Source: Tenacibaculum gallaicum
GTDB taxonomy: Bacteria; Bacteroidota; Bacteroidia; Flavobacteriales; Flavobacteriaceae
Direction of reading: 5' to 3'
Length of the DNA: 64,000 nt
Assembly: GCF_003387615.1 (NCBI RefSeq)
Contig: NZ_QUNS01000004.1
Location: forward strand, 124,001-188,000
Shown here piece after piece: positions 1 to 7,117 of the stretch. Below the pieces are notes generated by a model that searched no databases, was not told the origin of the DNA, and saw only the letters and a program-made list of their open reading frames with translations. Position 1 is the first letter of the stretch. Each line of letters starts with the position of its first letter. The translations under genes and the position numbers were made by a program.

Positions 1-49
1 CTATATTGGTAAGTTCTTTTTTAGCTATTAAGAATACTTGATGTATCAT
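1..49 (-). CDS. ABC-2 type transporter permease, N-terminal fragment
   Basis: Only the first 16 codons lie in the window; the gene continues past position 1. The peptide begins MIHQVFLIAKKELTNI, which matches the amphipathic cytoplasmic start of ABC-2 type permeases (family knowledge). It follows the ABC ATPase by 46 bases on the same strand, the usual ATPase-permease order. The start is the ATG at 49-47; the next ATG upstream (60-58) is followed at once by TAA. Assignment rests on position plus this short N-terminus. Confidence 0.55.
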   Translation of the reverse strand, partial: MIHQVFLIAKKELTNI

Positions 50-95
50 CTTGTTTACATTTTTATTTTTTTAGATTAATGACTTACTACACACT

Positions 96-797
96 CTATT
101 CATGCATGTGTTTTAAGTACTTTTGCTCTAAATCATGAAAAGAAACTTGATTTGATTCCATCTTTTCAACCAAAACCCCTTCTTTCATAATACCAATATG
201 TGTTCCTGTATCTTTAGCTCTAAAAAGATCGTGTGTTGCCATTAAAGTAGCTACTTTTTGTTGCTTCATGTTAAGTAGAAGCTCAGAAAACTCATTGCTT
301 GCTTTAGGGTCTAATCCAGATGTAGGTTCATCTAAAAGCAATACTTTGGCTCCTTTAGCTCTCGCTAAAGCAATCCCTACTTTTTGCCGCATCCCTTTAG
401 AATAACTACGAACTCTTTTCTTAATAAAATCTTTTTGTAAACCTGATTGTATTAATAAGTCTTCTAATGCTTCTTTTTCTATATCCACACCTTGTAGACC
501 GCAGAAAAAGTGAAGATTCTCCAGCCCTGTCATATATTGATACAACTGGAGATTTTCAGGAATATAAGACAACCATTTTTTTGTTTCTTGTGGGTTCTTT
601 GTTACATCTAAATCATTAACAAAAGCGCTACCAGATGTAGGCTCAATAAAATTTAGAAACAAATTAATCGTTGTTGATTTTCCCGCACCATTAGCACCGA
701 GCAAGCAAAAAATATCTCCTGCTTTAATATTTAAATTTAAACTATTCAAGGCGGTAAAATCACCATATTTTTTTGTGAGGTCTTGTGCTTTTAACAT
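96..797 (-). CDS. ABC transporter ATP-binding protein (ABC-2 exporter type)
   Basis: A 233-residue nucleotide-binding subunit of an ABC transporter. Walker A GANGAGKS is at residues 34-41, the signature YSKGMRQ at 132-138, and Walker B LLLDEP at 153-158, followed by the H-loop region MATHD. Length and sequence style fit the single-domain ATPases that pair with ABC-2 permeases, such as NosF of copper handling or drug exporters. It lies 8 bases after the lipoprotein gene and before a permease start, so it belongs to the operon that begins with the small Cys-rich peptide gene. Inferred role: export of the peptide or a linked inner-membrane step; the substrate cannot be read from the sequence. 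Confidence 0.9.
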   Translation of the reverse strand: MLKAQDLTKKYGDFTALNSLNLNIKAGDIFCLLGANGAGKSTTINLFLNFIEPTSGSAFVNDLDVTKNPQETKKWLSYIPENLQLYQYMTGLENLHFFCGLQGVDIEKEALEDLLIQSGLQKDFIKKRVRSYSKGMRQKVGIALARAKGAKVLLLDEPTSGLDPKASNEFSELLLNMKQQKVATLMATHDLFRAKDTGTHIGIMKEGVLVEKMESNQVSFHDLEQKYLKHMHE

Positions 798-805
798 GGT
801 GTATT

Positions 806-2026
806 CTATTTGTTATTAAAATCCTCAATACCTGATATGTACCCCCCTGTAGACGTAAACATTTTACTAGATGTGTTTGAACTGGTGTCAAAACTAAACA
901 CAGCATTTTCATCATTGGTTGCTGTCGTAAATAACAATTTTTGGTCTTTATAAGGAAGAATAATCATACTACGAGATCCATAAGTGGTAGGAAGTCCTGG
1001 TACCGCCCCTAAACTCGATTTTTTTTGAACATTAATCTCAAAATATTTGAATTGGGGTTGACCAGTTTGATACTCATAAAAATCACTTACCTCCTCTACT
1101 CTTGCTGTAAAGCTTCTTCCATTAGGTGTATGATAAATTCCATAACATACATTTCCTGTTACTTCTTGCATATTCATAAAGTAATCTGGGTCAAAAGAAG
1201 TTTCTCCATTAGGTATTCTTAGTAAACCGCTAGGACTAGTTCCACTACTCATTGTAGTTCCTAAACCTTGTACATAAATATCTCCATTAGTCGTTTTAAT
1301 CATTCCAGCATTTGCTGCATGTCCGCCAAACACCATTCCTGTTCTTTTATCCGAAATTATTTTTTCTACCTTTTTCTCCTTTAAATCTATTACCGCTACA
1401 TACGCCCAATCGTTTAATGGAGTAAAATTTTTCTCATAATGTACTCCCATAAACAACTTTCCATCACGTTCAATCATATCTGTATAATACGTACGTGTAG
1501 CTTCAGGAAATTCTTCTTTTATTAATGTTAAAGTTACTTCATCAGTAATGCGCATCGTAGTTGGGTTAAAAACAATAAGCTTTGAAATCCCTCCTGCTAC
1601 TGAAGCATACGCTACCTCCTTACTTTCAAAGTAAAGTGCTGAAAAAGTATTTGCTCCAGGAACAACAATACGTTGATCTTCAACTGTATTTCCTTCTTCA
1701 TTAAATGAATATTTTGCAAGGGTTGCAGGTGCACCAAAAGGCAATGCATACAGCTCTTTATTATAAGAAACTGTTCTTGTATTTCCAGTTAATTCTAACG
1801 CCTTATCATTTCCTATCGTTGAAAACTCTAAATTTGATTCCCCTTGAATATAAGAGGTCTGATTAGGAAACGCTCCACTTACTGTTGTAATCCCAAAATT
1901 AATAGTTACTGGATCGGTTCCGTCAACTGGTGAATTATCATCACTACTACACCCTATGAATGTAAAAACTAATACAAATGTGTAAAGTGATACTAAACTT
2001 ATTTTTTTTAAGAATTGTGTTTTCAT
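806..2026 (-). CDS. DUF4374-like surface lipoprotein beside TonB receptor
   Basis: A 406-residue secreted lipoprotein. The N-terminus has a positive stretch, a hydrophobic core and a lipobox ending ...FIGC (Cys26) followed by SSDDNS, which fits Bacteroidota lipoproteins sent to the outer membrane. The rest has repeated beta-strand and turn segments without enzyme motifs, in the manner of beta-propeller proteins of the DUF4374 type that accompany TonB receptors for siderophores. It lies 23 bases downstream of the TonB receptor gene. Inferred role: surface ligand-binding partner of the receptor. The family call comes from memory of the layout and sequence style and is moderate; no database search was run. 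Confidence 0.6.
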   Translation of the reverse strand: MKTQFLKKISLVSLYTFVLVFTFIGCSSDDNSPVDGTDPVTINFGITTVSGAFPNQTSYIQGESNLEFSTIGNDKALELTGNTRTVSYNKELYALPFGAPATLAKYSFNEEGNTVEDQRIVVPGANTFSALYFESKEVAYASVAGGISKLIVFNPTTMRITDEVTLTLIKEEFPEATRTYYTDMIERDGKLFMGVHYEKNFTPLNDWAYVAVIDLKEKKVEKIISDKRTGMVFGGHAANAGMIKTTNGDIYVQGLGTTMSSGTSPSGLLRIPNGETSFDPDYFMNMQEVTGNVCYGIYHTPNGRSFTARVEEVSDFYEYQTGQPQFKYFEINVQKKSSLGAVPGLPTTYGSRSMIILPYKDQKLLFTTATNDENAVFSFDTSSNTSSKMFTSTGGYISGIEDFNNK

Positions 2027-2049
2027 TTTTTATTTATTAATGTTTATTT

Positions 2050-4440
2050 CTAATTTATAAATGTTCTAAGTGTAATATAAAATGCTCTTCCAGGACGTTG
2101 TACACTAAAGTTGTCGAATACTTTTTCGTTAAATATATTGGTCGCTTCGGCAGTAACCGTCCATCTATTTTCTGGGTGAGAAAGAGTAATCCCTAAATTT
2201 TGAGTAAATTGAGGTGGAATGATGTTTTTTAAATCTTTATTGCCATCTACAGCCCAAAACAGATAAAACTCATTTACGTAGTTTGCAGACCACCATGCTG
2301 AAATATTATTTTTTGTGTGCAAAAAGTTTTCTTTGTGATAGCGTACTTCTGCATTACCAAAAAAATAAGGTTCATTAGGTAGTCTTGCATTAAAATAACG
2401 ATTGTCCACAGCCCCAGTAATGTTTTTCGGTGAACGGTTTCGTAAATCTTGATAAGTAGCATTTGCTTTTATATCAAAAAAATCAACCGGACGATAGCGC
2501 AGCTCCATATCAACCCCAAGCGTACGTGATTTTAATAAATTTTGATATTGAGAATAAAATTGTGAGGTTCGTAACCTAATACGATTATTTCTTCCTCTAT
2601 AAAAAAGATTCGTATCCCAACTAACCTTCTTTGTTTTTAGCTGAAAACCTAAATTAAGATTATGGCTTTGTTCTGGTTCTAAAAACGGATTGGATTTTAT
2701 TAAAGTAAAATTTCCAAAAAGCTCCACTTCATCAGGAAGTCTCGTAGCATACTCGTAAGAAGATTTTACTAAGAAAGATTTTGTAATATGGTAACGAAGC
2801 GATTGCAAAAACCCAAAATTTGATGTTTCTTGCTGGTTAGGAACAAACTCAAGGTTTTTTATTTCATACCCATCCGCACCTAACCAAAAATGTTTTGCTC
2901 CCGTGTAACTCGCTAAACTTTTTGAAAAACGGTGTTCATAAGCAATTCCTAAAACGTTTTTAAAAAGTTGGGTTGGATTCTTAAAAAAATCTTCTCCATA
3001 AAACTCAGCTGCAATTGGATCTTCTCCTACTCTTCTAAACCAAGCTGTAAAAAGATTCAACGTAAACGTTCCTTTTTCCCAGGGGTGATAGTTTAAATTA
3101 ACTCGATTTAAAACATTTTGGGAGGTTAATTTTAAAGAATTTCGTGAGGCAGAAATTTCTCCACCATCTGTCCGTTTACGATATATTTTACCATCCCAAG
3201 TATAGGCATTCAAAGTAGTATCAATAAAATGTCCTCTGGTACGGTTATAAGCACTATACCATTTCATATCCATTTTCTTTAAAATATTCTTTTTTTCATA
3301 TTCTAAAGAAGTCCCAATAGTTGATTCACCATAAGTAGCCTCTCCATAAGGTTGGGCCATAATAGCATTGTGCTGTATATCATCGTCAAGTCCTGAATAA
3401 CGCGCACTAAAAACCAATCGATCTGCATACTTTTTATCCAAAACTCCTACATAAACGTTTAAAAGATGATTAGAATATTTATCATGAAAACGTTTAACTC
3501 TTGCAGGTTCTGGGTTTCCTTGTTCGTTTGGTATTTCAACATCAACCTTATAGCTATTGTCTGAGTGATTAAAAAATGAATTCACCCCAAACATCCATTG
3601 ATTGTTTGAACTCATTAATTGCGCATTTACACTCATTTTATGGCTATTAAACGATCCTGCTGAATAGGAAACATCTAAATAGTCTGAATATAATTTTCTA
3701 GGAATTATATTAACCGCTCCTCCAAGCGCATCTGCTCCTAAATCTACAGGTACTACCCCCTTATAAACTTCAATTTGTTCTATTAAGTTTGAGGGCAATA
3801 CGTTTAACCCTAATCCAGCTCCAAAATATGATAGAGGAATTCCATCTAGAAAAAAAGGTACCGATTTCCCTGTCATCCCATTTACATAGATTTTTGCTTC
3901 GCTACCAAAACCTCCTGTTTGTCGTACATTTACCCCTGAAATTTGTTTTACAATATCACTTGTATTAATGTTTCTCTCTCGAAACTTTTCCATTTGTAAA
4001 ACTGACACGTTAGCTGTACTCTCTTTTAGTCTTTGAACTGATGATTTTCCTTCAAGAGTTACCTCGTTTAGCTGATTTTGCTGAGGTTTTAATTGAATAG
4101 TAAGTTTTATATTCGTTTTTTTACCTGAAACATCTATCGTCTGGTAATTTGTTTTAAAACCTACATAAGATATTTTTAAGCTATATTTTCCTTTCGGAAT
4201 CTTTTTAAATGTAAATTTTCCGTCTTCATTGGTTAGTGTATTTTTATTAAGTTCTTGTATTTGGAGATGAGACTGAAATAAAGGAATCCCTAAATTGTCA
4301 GTTACTACTCCTGAAACTTTTACTGTTTGCGAATACAAAAAACTACTTGTTAATAGGCTAAAAAATAATATGCATATAATTTTTATACTTTCTAATTTTT
4401 CAAAGTATAACATCTCTGATTTAAAATAATTTTTAGTCAT
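2050..4440 (-). CDS. TonB-dependent outer-membrane receptor (carboxypeptidase-regulatory-like domain)
   Basis: A 796-residue receptor. A hydrophobic signal segment ends near SFLYSQ (about residue 38), followed by a CarboxypepD_reg-like beta-sandwich (about 40-125), a plug domain (about 130-245, including GVNVRQTGGFGSEAKIYVNG and GGAVNIIPRK) and a beta-barrel to the terminal aromatic strand FYITLRTFIN. Such receptors import scarce ligands using TonB energy. Its start overlaps the stop of the 304-residue gene by one base (TAATG), implying translational coupling to the putative peptide-modification genes. Inferred ligand: the modified peptide encoded upstream, possibly metal-loaded. The size is a little larger than siderophore receptors and smaller than SusC proteins. 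Confidence 0.93.
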   Translation of the reverse strand: MTKNYFKSEMLYFEKLESIKIICILFFSLLTSSFLYSQTVKVSGVVTDNLGIPLFQSHLQIQELNKNTLTNEDGKFTFKKIPKGKYSLKISYVGFKTNYQTIDVSGKKTNIKLTIQLKPQQNQLNEVTLEGKSSVQRLKESTANVSVLQMEKFRERNINTSDIVKQISGVNVRQTGGFGSEAKIYVNGMTGKSVPFFLDGIPLSYFGAGLGLNVLPSNLIEQIEVYKGVVPVDLGADALGGAVNIIPRKLYSDYLDVSYSAGSFNSHKMSVNAQLMSSNNQWMFGVNSFFNHSDNSYKVDVEIPNEQGNPEPARVKRFHDKYSNHLLNVYVGVLDKKYADRLVFSARYSGLDDDIQHNAIMAQPYGEATYGESTIGTSLEYEKKNILKKMDMKWYSAYNRTRGHFIDTTLNAYTWDGKIYRKRTDGGEISASRNSLKLTSQNVLNRVNLNYHPWEKGTFTLNLFTAWFRRVGEDPIAAEFYGEDFFKNPTQLFKNVLGIAYEHRFSKSLASYTGAKHFWLGADGYEIKNLEFVPNQQETSNFGFLQSLRYHITKSFLVKSSYEYATRLPDEVELFGNFTLIKSNPFLEPEQSHNLNLGFQLKTKKVSWDTNLFYRGRNNRIRLRTSQFYSQYQNLLKSRTLGVDMELRYRPVDFFDIKANATYQDLRNRSPKNITGAVDNRYFNARLPNEPYFFGNAEVRYHKENFLHTKNNISAWWSANYVNEFYLFWAVDGNKDLKNIIPPQFTQNLGITLSHPENRWTVTAEATNIFNEKVFDNFSVQRPGRAFYITLRTFIN

Positions 4441-5354
4441 TATAACCTTACTTGCTTTATCAGTCCTTCCGCTTCCATTTCTTTAAATATCTCTAATTCT
4501 TTTTTTGACAGGCTATTTTTAGTGAGTAATCCATCCGCTTTATCCCATAATTCTTTTGCTTCTGACGTAAGAGAAAAAGCTTCATCTGTATCTTTCTTCA
4601 TGAGATAATTAAGTTCTGGTGATTTACTAACTAATAGTATTTCGTGATTTTTTATTAAATGTATCGGCTTCTCTTCTAATAATGGTACTATTTCTCGTTC
4701 TTCATTGTAGAGTAAAAAAGTATTACCTGTTGAAATTGAAAGTGACTTTGTTTCATTTGGACTCATTTCAAAAGCTTCCATTTCTGTTTTCATACAACCT
4801 TCAGAATTGATAAAGTACCTTACTATTTTTACGGGTGTTTTCTCTTCTGAATGATTGTAAACCATTGCTGTTTTTTCTTCTTTTTTTACATTGATTAGCG
4901 AAACTTTTTCTACCCAAAAATGATCATCTAAGTGAGTTTTAGAGTATTTTATATTTCCATTATTATGCACCTCAGATACAAGAGTATATTTTCCTAAAGG
5001 AGCATTATCGGGTACATTATATGTAAAATAATAATGGCGACCAGCCTGTATGTTTGTAAGAATTTCTACAAGTTTTTCACGTTTACAAGCTCCTTCTAAA
5101 TACGCAGCCAACACTAAAAGCGGGGTGTTTTTGTTTAAATATTTTAATTTTTGTGGTACTACTTCCTTGTTTTCATTTTCTTCTGGAAAAGCAACAACAT
5201 GATTTTCAAAAAGCATTGTTATATTACCATTAGGGTCTTTTACTCCTATTTTTACCAATGGGCATAAATGTTTATCTTTTAAGTGTGCTGTATTAAAATT
5301 CCAATGAATGGTAACAGTGGTACCTTGAATGGTTCTTTTGGGAAAAATGCTCAT
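4440..5354 (-). CDS. Cytoplasmic protein with PqqD-like C-terminal domain (candidate RiPP recognition protein)
   Basis: A 304-residue protein with no signal peptide or membrane segment. Residues 1 to about 230 look beta-rich and match nothing I recognise. Residues about 232-304 resemble the PqqD / RiPP-recognition fold: a strand pair (HLIKNHEILLVSKS), then LTSEAKELWDKADGLLTKN with the hydrophobic-acidic spacing of PqqD helices, then a final helix and EGLIKQVRL. PqqD-like domains bind leader peptides of RiPP precursors. It starts 2 bases after the 160-residue gene and overlaps the TonB receptor gene by 1 base. What is seen is the C-terminal resemblance; binding to the upstream 35-residue peptide is inference. 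An ordinary winged helix is the main alternative. Confidence 0.5.
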   Translation of the reverse strand: MSIFPKRTIQGTTVTIHWNFNTAHLKDKHLCPLVKIGVKDPNGNITMLFENHVVAFPEENENKEVVPQKLKYLNKNTPLLVLAAYLEGACKREKLVEILTNIQAGRHYYFTYNVPDNAPLGKYTLVSEVHNNGNIKYSKTHLDDHFWVEKVSLINVKKEEKTAMVYNHSEEKTPVKIVRYFINSEGCMKTEMEAFEMSPNETKSLSISTGNTFLLYNEEREIVPLLEEKPIHLIKNHEILLVSKSPELNYLMKKDTDEAFSLTSEAKELWDKADGLLTKNSLSKKELEIFKEMEAEGLIKQVRL

Positions 5355-5356
5355 TC

Positions 5357-5839
5357 TTATTTTTTCAATTTTTTAATATTTTCTTTGCTGTATTTTTGAG
5401 GATATACTTTAAACCATTTTACAATGGTTTCTTCTCCAAAATAATCGTAGGTTGTAGATAACAAAAATTCCAGTTTCTTGAGATACTCTTTTTTTGCTTC
5501 ATCTGGTGCAATTCTCATAGCCTCTCCTCTTTCATCTTTTTCTTTTTTAGTTGCAGGAAGATGATGAAAATAAGGAGTGTTTAAATATTCTTTGCTAAAC
5601 TTATGATAAAGAGGTGTAAACAATATAAGATTGTGCCACATTTCATCTATAATTAATAAATCGTCTGGGATGAAAACTCCCGGAATTTGGCTGATATACA
5701 AAAACTTCAAAGTTTCCAACAAAATGTCTTCAGCTTCGGTTTCAGTAACATCATACATATCTAAAAATCTAGATATTACATTTTCGTCACTAAAAGTTAG
5801 GAGCCTGTCTAATTGTTCTTCTGTAACTCTTTCTTCCAT
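5357..5839 (-). CDS. WH...HH-motif protein (GRDP-like), candidate peptide-modifying partner
   Basis: A 160-residue soluble protein without signal peptide. The central block DEMWHNLILFTPLYHKF, followed by YFHHLP about 10 residues later, matches the conserved core of glycine-rich-domain-containing-protein-like (GRDP-like, PF07173-type) proteins, where WHxxI/L...T..Y..F...HH is invariant. The biochemical function of that family is not settled; clustered His residues suggest metal binding. Here it is the first gene after the terminator behind the 35-residue Cys/His peptide and sits 2 bases before the PqqD-like gene. I infer a role in maturing or binding the peptide or its metal, but no catalytic activity can be read off. 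Confidence 0.5.
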   Translation of the reverse strand: MEERVTEEQLDRLLTFSDENVISRFLDMYDVTETEAEDILLETLKFLYISQIPGVFIPDDLLIIDEMWHNLILFTPLYHKFSKEYLNTPYFHHLPATKKEKDERGEAMRIAPDEAKKEYLKKLEFLLSTTYDYFGEETIVKWFKVYPQKYSKENIKKLKK

Positions 5840-5868
5840 ATACTTAACTCTTCTTACTTTTAAAAAAA

Positions 5869-5891
5869 GCGGTAGGATAAATACCTACCGC
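5869..5891 (-). terminator. Intrinsic terminator or attenuator after the small peptide gene
   Basis: A perfect 8-bp GC-rich stem, GCGGTAGG / CCTACCGC with a 7-base loop. On the minus strand it is followed by TTTTTTT. It lies between the stop of the 35-codon gene (5905) and the start of the 160-residue gene (5839). This position would let most transcripts end after the peptide gene, with partial read-through into the downstream genes. Confidence 0.85.
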
Positions 5892-5904
5892 CAAAAATTT
5901 GGGA

Positions 5905-6012
5905 CTATAAAGTGTTAACACAGTGTCCACAATTACTACAATGTGTAGTTCCAGCTGCTTGTTTAGACTTATCAGCTAAAATTTCTGAGATCATTGATTC
6001 TTTGGTTTTCAT
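5905..6012 (-). CDS. Small Cys/His-rich peptide, candidate RiPP precursor
   Basis: A 35-codon reading frame found by eye. ATG is at 6012-6010 and TAG at 5907-5905. The N-terminal 20 residues are polar and helix-prone (MKTKESMISEILADKSKQ...), like a RiPP leader. The C-terminal part reads AGTTHCSNCGHCVNTL, with three Cys in a CxxCxxC pattern and two His. There is no hydrophobic signal peptide. It is followed directly by a strong terminator, as precursor genes often are, and then by genes for a WH-motif protein, a PqqD-like protein and a TonB receptor. Coding is supported by this context and by the leader/core contrast; expression and modification are inference. A free zinc-knuckle microprotein is an alternative. 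Confidence 0.65.
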   Translation of the reverse strand: MKTKESMISEILADKSKQAAGTTHCSNCGHCVNTL

Positions 6013-6571
6013 AATTAAAAATTTTAAAGTTTTGCCTACTCTATTTTATAAGGTTTTCAGCATCCCCTTTGTTGCAACTTCTTTAATATTATGGTACATA
6101 AATCCAATAGAATTCCTAGGCTTTTCAAAATGAGACTTAGTCTTTTGAAAAACTAAAAGATTTCTGTAAAGATTCTTTTGAAATTTAAATTTTAGTAATA
6201 ACCTATGCTCTAGTATATTTATATTTAGGCACTTTTCTCACTTCTTATATTATCTAATGTCTATAACTGTTGTAAAACCCTTAAAACACGAAAGACATTT
6301 AAGTTGCTGTAATATATTCCAGATAAGATAATCCTGCATCTAAATATACTACGAGCCAATCCTTTAAAACAATAAAGAAAATAGGTTATTAAAATAAAAA
6401 CAAAGTAGTGGTAAGAGTTTTTAAGCTTGTATTTTTCCTCTTAAAAAAACTGAAAAGTTACATTCTGTTTCTCTTCTTCATCACAAGCATTATATAAGCC
6501 AATATTCTATAACTGCTTAAATACTTGAATAAAAAACATTAATAAAAAGATTAAATGTGTAAATAAAACTC
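6013..6571. other. Intergenic region upstream of the peptide gene, with inverted repeat
   Basis: About 560 bases with no convincing gene. It should hold the promoter of the minus-strand peptide operon, but I could not fix a clear TAnnTTTG box. An inverted repeat TTTTCAAAA (6122-6130) / TTTTGAAAA (6143-6151), with an inner GACT/AGTC pair, lies about 110 bases upstream of the peptide start and could be an operator. The rest is AT-rich with only short random frames. Confidence 0.4.
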
Positions 6572-6880
6572 TTACACTAAAGAAGGTGGTGGTCTAGAAA
6601 AAAGTTCCCCCGTAGTAATAATTCCTGAAATAATAAAATTATAATCTTTAATTACTTCTCTTAAAACAACATATTCATTGTTTTCTACTGAAAAATCTAA
6701 AGTATCAGGAGTAACTAACGGAGTTAAATCACTTGCAACTGCATGATCACATATCGTACAGTGTGATGTATGGTCTTTATCGTCTGTATGAGATAGCACG
6801 TGTAACCCGCCTACTTTCATTGATAGAAACAGGACAAGAAATAAATATGCAATGCTATTTTTTAAACGATTACTTTCCAT
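6572..6880 (-). CDS. Small HxC..C / PPP-tail protein (metal-associated Bacteroidota family)
   Basis: A 102-residue protein when started at the ATG at 6880, with a hydrophobic N-terminal helix (SIAYLFLVLFLSMKVGGLHV). A His/Cys cluster LSHTDDKDHTSHCTICDHAV follows, and the C-terminus is FSRPPPSLV. This order (helix, H-x-C..C, PP tail) resembles small Bacteroidota proteins that NCBI labels HYC_CC_PP family and the proteobacterial DUF2946 proteins, both often beside copper or zinc genes. The upstream in-frame ATG at 6919 would precede the -7 box at 6888-6895, so the internal start is preferred. It is transcribed in the same direction as the peptide operon. Metal sensing or binding is inferred. 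Confidence 0.6.
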   Translation of the reverse strand: MESNRLKNSIAYLFLVLFLSMKVGGLHVLSHTDDKDHTSHCTICDHAVASDLTPLVTPDTLDFSVENNEYVVLREVIKDYNFIISGIITTGELFSRPPPSLV

Positions 6881-6887
6881 TTGGCAA

Positions 6888-6895
6888 CGAATATA
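6888..6895 (-). promoter_or_regulatory. -7 promoter element for the HxC..C protein
   Basis: TATATTCG on the minus strand, one base from the TAnnTTTG consensus of Bacteroidota. It ends 7 bases before the ATG at 6880, giving a very short leader and excluding the longer reading frame. Confidence 0.5.
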
Positions 6896-7117
6896 ATAAA
6901 TTAAATTATAAAAACACATAAATATTACTTACTACTTAAAACTTTATTACAAACTATTGTCGTTAAGCGAACTATATTTATAGAAATCTTTTTTAGTATA
7001 AAAGCAACATCGTAGCTATAACAATTTAATTTACTGAAAACAACCCCACTATCCTCTCTCTTATTTTTTCGTTAATAAAAAGGATATAAAAACTGTTTTT
7101 TCATACGTTGAATATAG

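Follow-up and report, generated by a model that had tools for sequence, protein, structure and literature searches.

What does a 35-codon gene make, and to what end, when it stands at the head of an uptake gene cluster in Tenacibaculum gallaicum? The gene lies in a stretch of 64,000 nucleotides (contig NZ_QUNS01000004.1, positions 124,001 to 188,000; here the window) of a 3.42 Mb genome, and its product ends in closely spaced His and Cys residues. We propose, with a probability of about 0.58, that the cluster is a ribosomally made zincophore system whose product is secreted and re-imported. The proposal draws on the conservation of the gene, on the leader and core of its product, on relatives of the adjoining WH protein in clusters for ribosomally synthesized and post-translationally modified peptides (RiPPs), and on a palindrome that the gene shares, in related bacteria, with zinc-starvation genes. 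An earlier sequence-only reading of the window had named the peptide gene, terminator, WH gene, 304-aa gene, receptor, lipoprotein and ATPase, and all are present where it had placed them, on the minus strand:

5905–6012, minus strand: peptide gene of 35 codons (MKTKESMISEILADKSKQAAGTTHCSNCGHCVNTL), from the list of open reading frames
5868–5892, minus strand: intrinsic terminator between the peptide and WH genes, from a terminator search against shuffled sequences
5357–5839, minus strand: WH protein, 160 aa, from alignment, an AlphaFold2 model and relatives in RiPP clusters
4440–5354, minus strand: 304-aa partner protein, from alignment, model and VIA-align
2050–4440, minus strand: TonB-dependent receptor, from Pfam (Plug, TonB_dep_Rec, CarbopepD_reg_2)
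806–2026, minus strand: lipoprotein-like DUF4374 protein of the XusB type, from Pfam (PF14298, 39.4 bits, cut-off 25)
96–797, minus strand: ABC ATPase, from Pfam

Is so short a gene real? The conservation beside the WH and 304-aa genes on which the sequence-only reading had staked its case was borne out: each of the 37 cluster-bearing genomes, which were located through the WH or the 304-aa protein, encodes a homologous peptide immediately ahead of WH (one copy, L088, is cut by a contig edge). These genomes comprise 32 named loci, minus two that repeat congeners (L069 and L073), plus seven congeners. The named loci, all from Bacteroidota, come from a scan of a species collection with the 304-aa alignment, and they span Tenacibaculum, Flavivirga, Algibacter, Aquimarina, Allomuricauda, Fulvivirga, Reichenbachiella, Marinoscillum, Terrimonas, Mucilaginibacter, Hymenobacter, Flavobacterium and others, with one metagenome-assembled genome labelled Thalassovita that is probably misnamed. 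Since the scan required one of two short exact peptide patterns, their number is a lower bound (at least 32). A peptide with the spacing HC-x4-HC precedes WH in every one of them (32/32, with L088 again cut at the contig edge). The system is nevertheless sparse, as the 304-aa protein occurs in 2 of 395 genomes of the order, its own included. When 166 congeneric genomes were searched with WH, 20 had a match, seven of them at ≥75% identity, and all seven keep the order 115-aa gene, peptide, WH, 304-aa protein, receptor, DUF4374 protein and ABC ATPase. An independent peptide profile, run against 164 congeneric genomes, recovered the same seven at E < 1e-20 and short fragments only (E 0.005–0.008) in two more. 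The nearest named relative at the locus is Tenacibaculum sp. 1_MG-2023 (97% identity in the 304-aa protein). Raw ratios of nonsynonymous to synonymous polymorphism (pN/pS) for two length classes of the peptide, near-identical genomes included, were 0.28 (19 sequences) and 0.23 (18 sequences). Judged from these sequences, the peptide is under purifying selection and the gene is real, more than a chance reading frame.

The first half of the peptide is a charged leader, in which the motif [KR][EKQ]x[LMIT][ILV]xx[IL][LIVM] occurs in 30 of 33 distinct peptides, and in the window it is joined to the core THCSNCGHCVNTL. By-eye counts place Gly-Gly before the core in 18 of the 33, with AGT, SGS, SGM, SSS and others elsewhere, and, beyond the window's own clade, at the leader end in 21 of 26 genomes. 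That clade, Tenacibaculum-Flavivirga-Algibacter, supplies 10 of the 36 genomes in the counts of upstream leaders (L088 is left out with its cut peptide, and L027 and L031 as the genomes of L069 and L073), and in Tenacibaculum the leader ends in AGT, SGS or SGM. The core, about 13 residues with the consensus [TSMAV]HCxxxxHCxx[TSG][LF], has SNCG as its four middle residues in nearly all loci and SKCG in one (L099). The sequence-only reading had taken CxxCxxC as the essential motif, a view that does not hold: the middle Cys is replaced in Reichenbachiella (SGGG, L090), in an uncultured Cyclobacteriaceae (GGGG, L092) and in Hymenobacter (SGST, L097), and all three retain HC-x4-HC, which is the invariant part. 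The 41 peptides were collected with a pattern that itself required HC-x4-HC (L031 and L073 were counted twice), so the constancy of this spacing rests on every locus having such a peptide. The HC-x4-HC core offers two His and two Cys, the set of ligands required for tetrahedral Zn(II) coordination. A gene-encoded precursor with a conserved leader and core is expected of a RiPP, and we consider it very probable that the peptide is a RiPP-type precursor. We also tried to identify it as a TIGR04165 Cys-rich peptide, which failed (18.2 bits against a cut-off of 60).

The WH protein connects this peptide to known RiPP clusters. It is all-helical in the AlphaFold2 model (predicted local distance difference test score, pLDDT, 88.9), and in alignments its DEMWH and HH motifs are invariant within the zinc-cluster family, while DEMWH and the second His remain invariant in the wider family. 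Two full-length relatives (34 and 30% identity) sit between a Gly-Gly precursor and the maturases of grasp-with-spasm clusters (L033 and L034; TIGR04192 at 336 and 342 bits, cut-off 230; TIGR04193 at 320 and 306 bits, cut-off 175), one of which (L033) also holds a C39 peptidase transporter, and a third (41%) is encoded directly downstream of a Cys-rich Gly-Gly precursor (L183). WH is thus a putative maturation protein shared with known RiPP clusters. Profiles of WH matched 3 of 395 genomes of the phylum and 10 of 397 of the family; because L183 was the only further full-length member in these scans, the RiPP contexts of WH come from three genomes. We treated more distant WH-like proteins (about 133–184 and 460 aa) as generic, having recognised no precursor beside those whose neighbours were listed.

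The leader motif of the zinc-cluster peptides recurs in 4 of 4 precursors beside WH relatives (three distinct leaders: KENLISELM, KENLIDELM and KEKLISELV) and is absent from all seven other leaders that were chosen by eye among genes preceded by a DUF805b RNA. We regard this likeness between zinc-cluster and RiPP-cluster peptides as a lead. Because WH relatives follow Gly-Gly precursors with a similar leader motif, the RiPP reading, already part of the sequence-only reading, is well supported, together with the leader and core themselves and the Gly-Gly ends that prevail outside the window's clade. What, then, might WH do? Since its relatives are found with other RiPP precursors whose leaders resemble this one, WH is most likely, by analogy, a putative leader handler, acting in recognition or in leader-dependent modification or cleavage; it may also have a catalytic role. 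No relative of solved structure was found (best Foldseek E 4.0, VIA-align Z at most 3.2), which does not in itself prove a new fold. WH has no Pfam match, and a distant paralog of 467 aa reaches 18.7 bits with PF07173 (GRDP-like), below the cut-off of 22.7.

The 304-aa partner is modelled as an N-terminal beta-sandwich (residues 1–150) and a small C-terminal alpha/beta part (pLDDT 82.1). The structural comparison effectively covers residues 1–150, which resemble RbmA (VIA-align Z 11.4, root-mean-square deviation 2.0, 97 residues aligned) and also MG2 domains. The PqqD-like end that had been proposed for this protein went unconfirmed by sequence comparison: neither Pfam nor a PDB profile search gave a PqqD match, and hhalign to the N termini of SPASM maturases returned a probability of 0.4 percent. 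The modelled C-terminal topology could be a reduced form of PqqD. As the sequence-only reading had noted for the part visible to it, no radical SAM, LanB/LanM, YcaO or MNIO (DUF692) enzyme was recognised among the conserved genes, which were inspected by eye and, for part of them, with Pfam.

If the peptide binds a metal, which metal is it? Upstream of the peptide gene, relatives carry one or two copies of the palindrome GCAACANTGTTGC; where there are two, they are about 37–39 bases apart, the second just before an RNA element. Two features of the window belong here:

6033–6070, minus strand: DUF805b RNA (RF02914) in the 5′ leader of the peptide gene, from Rfam (45.5 bits, gathering score 35.6)
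6071–6078, strand not assigned: GTTGCAAC, a remnant of the Zur-type palindrome GCAACANTGTTGC, from comparison with relatives

Within the last 120 bases before the start codon, GCAACANTGTTGC occurs exactly in 16 of 36 leaders, with at most one mismatch in 22 and with at most two in 23, and all of the last are among the 26 relatives outside the window's clade (23/26); after single-base shuffling of 35 whole loci, the corresponding numbers of sites were 0.0, 1.4 and 18.4. Genome-wide, the exact palindrome was found 28 times in 9 genomes, one genome having none, against 0 for the reversed control. Ten of the 28 sites are in peptide leaders, and 10 of the other 18 stand beside zinc-starvation or uptake genes: COG0523 genes (L161, with Fur; L162, with HisI; L164; L167, with MerC; L168), Fur-family genes (with MerC in L176; with a reductase-COG0523-ThrRS run in L178), a homologous reductase recognised by eye (L166) and TonB receptors (L169, L172). 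The COG0523 protein of L161 scores 563.9 bits as ZigA (cut-off 600). In Agaribacillus (L199, overlapping L081), the MATE, methyltransferase and Fur-family genes, the box and a ZigA-like gene are contiguous with the cluster; COG0523, ThrRS, PTPS (QueD-like) and MerC genes lie upstream of the peptide in L099; and Fur-family genes are also present in the sequence examined at L096, L097 and L099 and, with 33% identity, at L070 and L071. In other phyla, Zur is predicted to act on paralogs of COG0523, HisI, ThrRS and QueD (PMC2770081), and promoters with two Zur boxes are known (PMC6103462).

In relatives, then, the box accompanies Fur-family and COG0523 genes and genes for paralogs of Zn enzymes, as expected of a Zur regulon. 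The most likely reading of GCAACANTGTTGC is a Zur box, and that of the cluster a response to zinc starvation. We are highly confident of a zinc regulon in the family; for the window strain we consider it probable. There the full palindrome is absent and the clade retains only the half box GTTGCAAC, and the strain's Fur-family gene, which has a TonB receptor gene behind it (recognised by eye), has just a three-mismatch site close by, so zinc regulation in this strain is argued from kinship. A genome-wide count at up to two mismatches was uninformative (103 sites against 73 in the reversed control). Because the palindrome recurs beside Fur-family, COG0523, MerC, HisI and TonB genes, the metal would most likely be zinc. 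The sequence-only reading had offered copper or zinc, and the apparent Zur regulon of the relatives favors the second. Two His-Cys pairs would suit Cu(I) as well, and methanobactin is a ribosomal precedent for copper, so that the same peptide could be a copper metallophore; with the box lying among COG0523/ZigA-like, HisI, ThrRS and Fur-family genes, we set copper aside as first choice and think it quite improbable.

The palindrome also drew attention to other genes. In two Aquimarina genomes (L171, by Pfam, and L174, by eye) an exact copy lies upstream of a secreted-looking subtilase gene, possibly a zinc-controlled protease. Upstream of the peptide gene in the window is a further small gene:

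6572–6919, minus strand: 115-aa protein with HCTICDH, conserved in part of the relatives

This protein and a second copy in the same genome (L007, 2172–2480), which stands before another TonB receptor gene, have an H-C-T-x-C-D-H motif and an SRPPP end. A two-mismatch palindrome lies 97 nt upstream of the 115-aa gene in the window strain and its nearest relative, and none was found within three mismatches upstream of it in eight other clade loci checked. Similar-looking small proteins (by eye) with a palindrome upstream occur in L093, L164 and L172, and such H-C-T-x-C-D-H proteins are possibly an unnamed zinc-regulon family.

How would enough of the peptide be made? The RF02914 element scores above the gathering score before 10 of 10 peptide copies in seven loci, and a looser DUF805b pattern is present in 34 of 36 leaders (not in L086 or L091). 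Two genomes have tandem peptide genes, two copies in one and three in the other. Because the RNA is repeated before each tandem gene and GTTGCAAC precedes only the first, the RNA probably acts on each cistron after transcription has started. Behind the peptide gene, the terminator at 5892–5868 was the one found against 0.1 expected in shuffles. A short reading frame with a Cys/His-rich end, then a terminator, then an operon could also be a regulatory leader peptide, an attenuator without a product of its own. We find this very hard to credit, given amino-acid conservation over the whole length with the low pN/pS noted above, tandem copies each with its own DUF805b RNA, a leader that resembles those of other RiPP precursors and, in three species, a middle Cys changed to Gly or Ser.

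The RNA is not confined to this cluster. Six sites in the window strain's genome pass the cut-off, each ending 16–26 bases before an ATG, and the genes that follow encode a precursor adjoining an ATP-grasp gene (by eye) and other proteins. At one locus (G000:C1:168584, L051) the RNA precedes a 63-aa precursor with TKGG and an ATP-grasp-like protein (by eye), a graspetide-type cluster beside which no WH gene was seen; at another (G000:C6:82941, L055) a match of 35.3 bits, just below the cut-off, precedes two tandem Gly-Gly leader peptides with Cys-bearing cores. Among 166 congeneric genomes, 122 have the RNA at E up to 1e-6, 102 of them above the cut-off. In 29 loci from the top of that list (among L049–L057 and L101–L129), the ATG mostly comes 19–28 bases after the motif and the genes include some for RiPP-like precursors and, by eye, for secreted-, lectin- or toxin-like proteins. 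The DUF805b RNA might serve more generally as a 5′ element for exported products made in abundance. Our literature search returned no paper on the DUF805 RNA and none on grasp-with-spasm.

Where would the product go? In 30 of the 32 named loci, a TonB receptor gene is found within 2.5 kb of that for the 304-aa protein and has the same orientation, the exceptions being L099, in which it is on the other strand and further off, and L096. As in Xus-type systems, a DUF4374 protein adjoins the receptor, identified by Pfam in the window and conserved in relatives. In Bacteroides the DUF4374 protein XusB binds siderophores atop its TonB partner (PMC13142918). The metallophore context seen by the sequence-only reading is thereby supported, a TonB receptor and an XusB-type lipoprotein both being in the cluster. 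A counterpart of the PepSY membrane protein XusC was not recognised by eye among the listed reading frames, for which no dedicated test was made. On the export side, the operon continues to the left of the window with two ABC-2/DUF3526 permeases (476 and 473 aa) and then a MATE gene (L007, 7550 down to 3313). In most loci long enough to show it, the MATE gene accompanies the cluster; in L097 and L099 it is the next gene after that for the 304-aa protein.

A class I methyltransferase gene adjoins the MATE gene in eight loci (L007, L069–L073, L099 and L199), most other loci ending before that point, and in the window genome, outside the window, this small gene converges on the MATE gene. It is possible that the enzyme is a tailoring enzyme. 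Its positions next to MATE are, for three of these loci:

L007, 2659–3288: methyltransferase gene
L099, 12301–12903: methyltransferase gene
L199, 5014–5628: methyltransferase gene

Do these neighbors require that the peptide be secreted and taken back? It might instead be a matured buffer or chaperone for zinc or another metal that is retained in the envelope, with the receptor importing another ligand. A short His/Cys peptide would suit such a role, export is itself a proposed step, and the receptors vary far more between species (about 33–77% identity to that of the window outside its nearest relative) than the core peptide does. We nonetheless think this unlikely, as peptide and receptor run in the same direction in 30 of 32 named loci and the MATE gene travels with the cluster; NCBIfam has MATE exporters for the RiPPs methanobactin and tryglysin, although the MATE protein here scores far below their cut-offs. 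Alternatively, the product could be a zinc-regulated antagonistic peptide, such as a bacteriocin, the ABC-2 set providing self-immunity. One ABC-2 permease weakly matches the lantibiotic immunity permeases MutG and MutE (21.3 and 18.6 bits, far below cut-off), and some clusters with WH relatives could produce peptides of this kind. This explanation seems improbable for a short core that hardly varies and has many metal ligands, encoded with uptake parts (the receptor and the DUF4374 lipoprotein) and preceded by boxes in a zinc-regulon context.

We therefore return to the zincophore. Beyond the observed gene conservation, leader and core architecture, WH-RiPP kinship and regulon membership in relatives, we infer every biochemical step, including peptide modification, export and re-import. 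Upon zinc starvation, a Zur-type repressor would release the promoter, and a short precursor, with the leader K-E-x-L-I-x-x-I-L (usually ending in Gly-Gly outside the window's clade) and the core THCxxxxHCxxTL, would be made in large amount through its own 5′ element and terminator. The WH and 304-aa proteins would mature it, WH most likely acting on the leader, and the product would leave through the MATE and/or ABC-2 transporter. Outside, its two His-Cys pairs would bind Zn(II), and the DUF4374 lipoprotein would catch the zinc-loaded product for return through the TonB receptor.

Several observations count against this proposal. No conserved processing protease or known modifying enzyme was recognised, L096 has no nearby receptor, and WH (L096, L097) and the 304-aa gene (L096) are interrupted where the peptide frame is open, by decay or assembly error. 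The motif of the leader was derived from the very sequences, a small sample, on which it was then tried. As to zinc, no box within two mismatches precedes the peptide in the window's clade (10 of 36 leaders) or in L075, L093 and L097, and 8 of the 18 boxes away from peptide genes have no evident zinc link: the two at subtilase genes, three inside reading frames (L165, L170, L173) and three others (L163, L175, L177). The regulator belongs to the FUR family by Pfam, its best NCBIfam Zur score is 34.5 bits (cut-off 167), and in L176 Fur/PerR models outscore Zur. Finally, the searched text of PMC2770081 and PMC6103462 names no Bacteroidota Zur box and has no word containing "bacteroid".

Tentatively, the cluster may represent a first ribosomally encoded zincophore family with new RiPP machinery, in which a helical WH protein (leader-handling or modifying, and shared with graspetide-type clusters) and an immunoglobulin/MG2-like partner would yield an HC-x4-HC chelator that is exported and re-imported. 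If so, the sequence of a genome or metagenome could by itself reveal a gene-encoded zincophore, the WH family would gain a role, and a class of DUF4374/TonB pairs would have a candidate natural ligand. No ribosomal zincophore of Bacteroidota appeared among the titles and abstracts that our literature searches listed, and the small-molecule zincophores that we know of are all opines or non-ribosomal products. Overall, the RiPP character and metallophore context of the sequence-only reading stand, its choice of metals narrows to zinc, its PqqD domain is not confirmed, and CxxCxxC is not retained as the essential motif.

How does such a system compare with those already known? Adjacent TonB receptor and DUF4374 genes are shared with the Xus system of Bacteroides (XusA and XusB; PMC13142918). 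Unlike Xus, which takes up iron siderophores made by others and includes the PepSY protein XusC, the cluster has a self-encoded peptide, MATE and ABC genes and, in relatives, zinc-type regulation. Methanobactin and the Cys peptides made by MNIO enzymes (bufferins, chryseobasin type) are likewise ribosomal, Cys-bearing and metal-related or RiPPs, and methanobactin is exported by MATE and imported by TonB; here, in contrast, no MNIO (DUF692) gene was recognised among the conserved genes, the core is HC-x4-HC and the regulation is of the zinc type. The opine zincophores staphylopine and pseudopaline are small zinc scavengers with dedicated export and re-uptake under Zur, built from amino acids by dedicated enzymes and not from a gene-encoded peptide. 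Grasp-with-spasm clusters (L033, L034) resemble the zinc cluster in that a gene of the WH family immediately follows the precursor gene, there one with Gly-Gly and a KExLIxEL leader; they also have the ATP-grasp and SPASM maturases that were not recognised in the zinc cluster.

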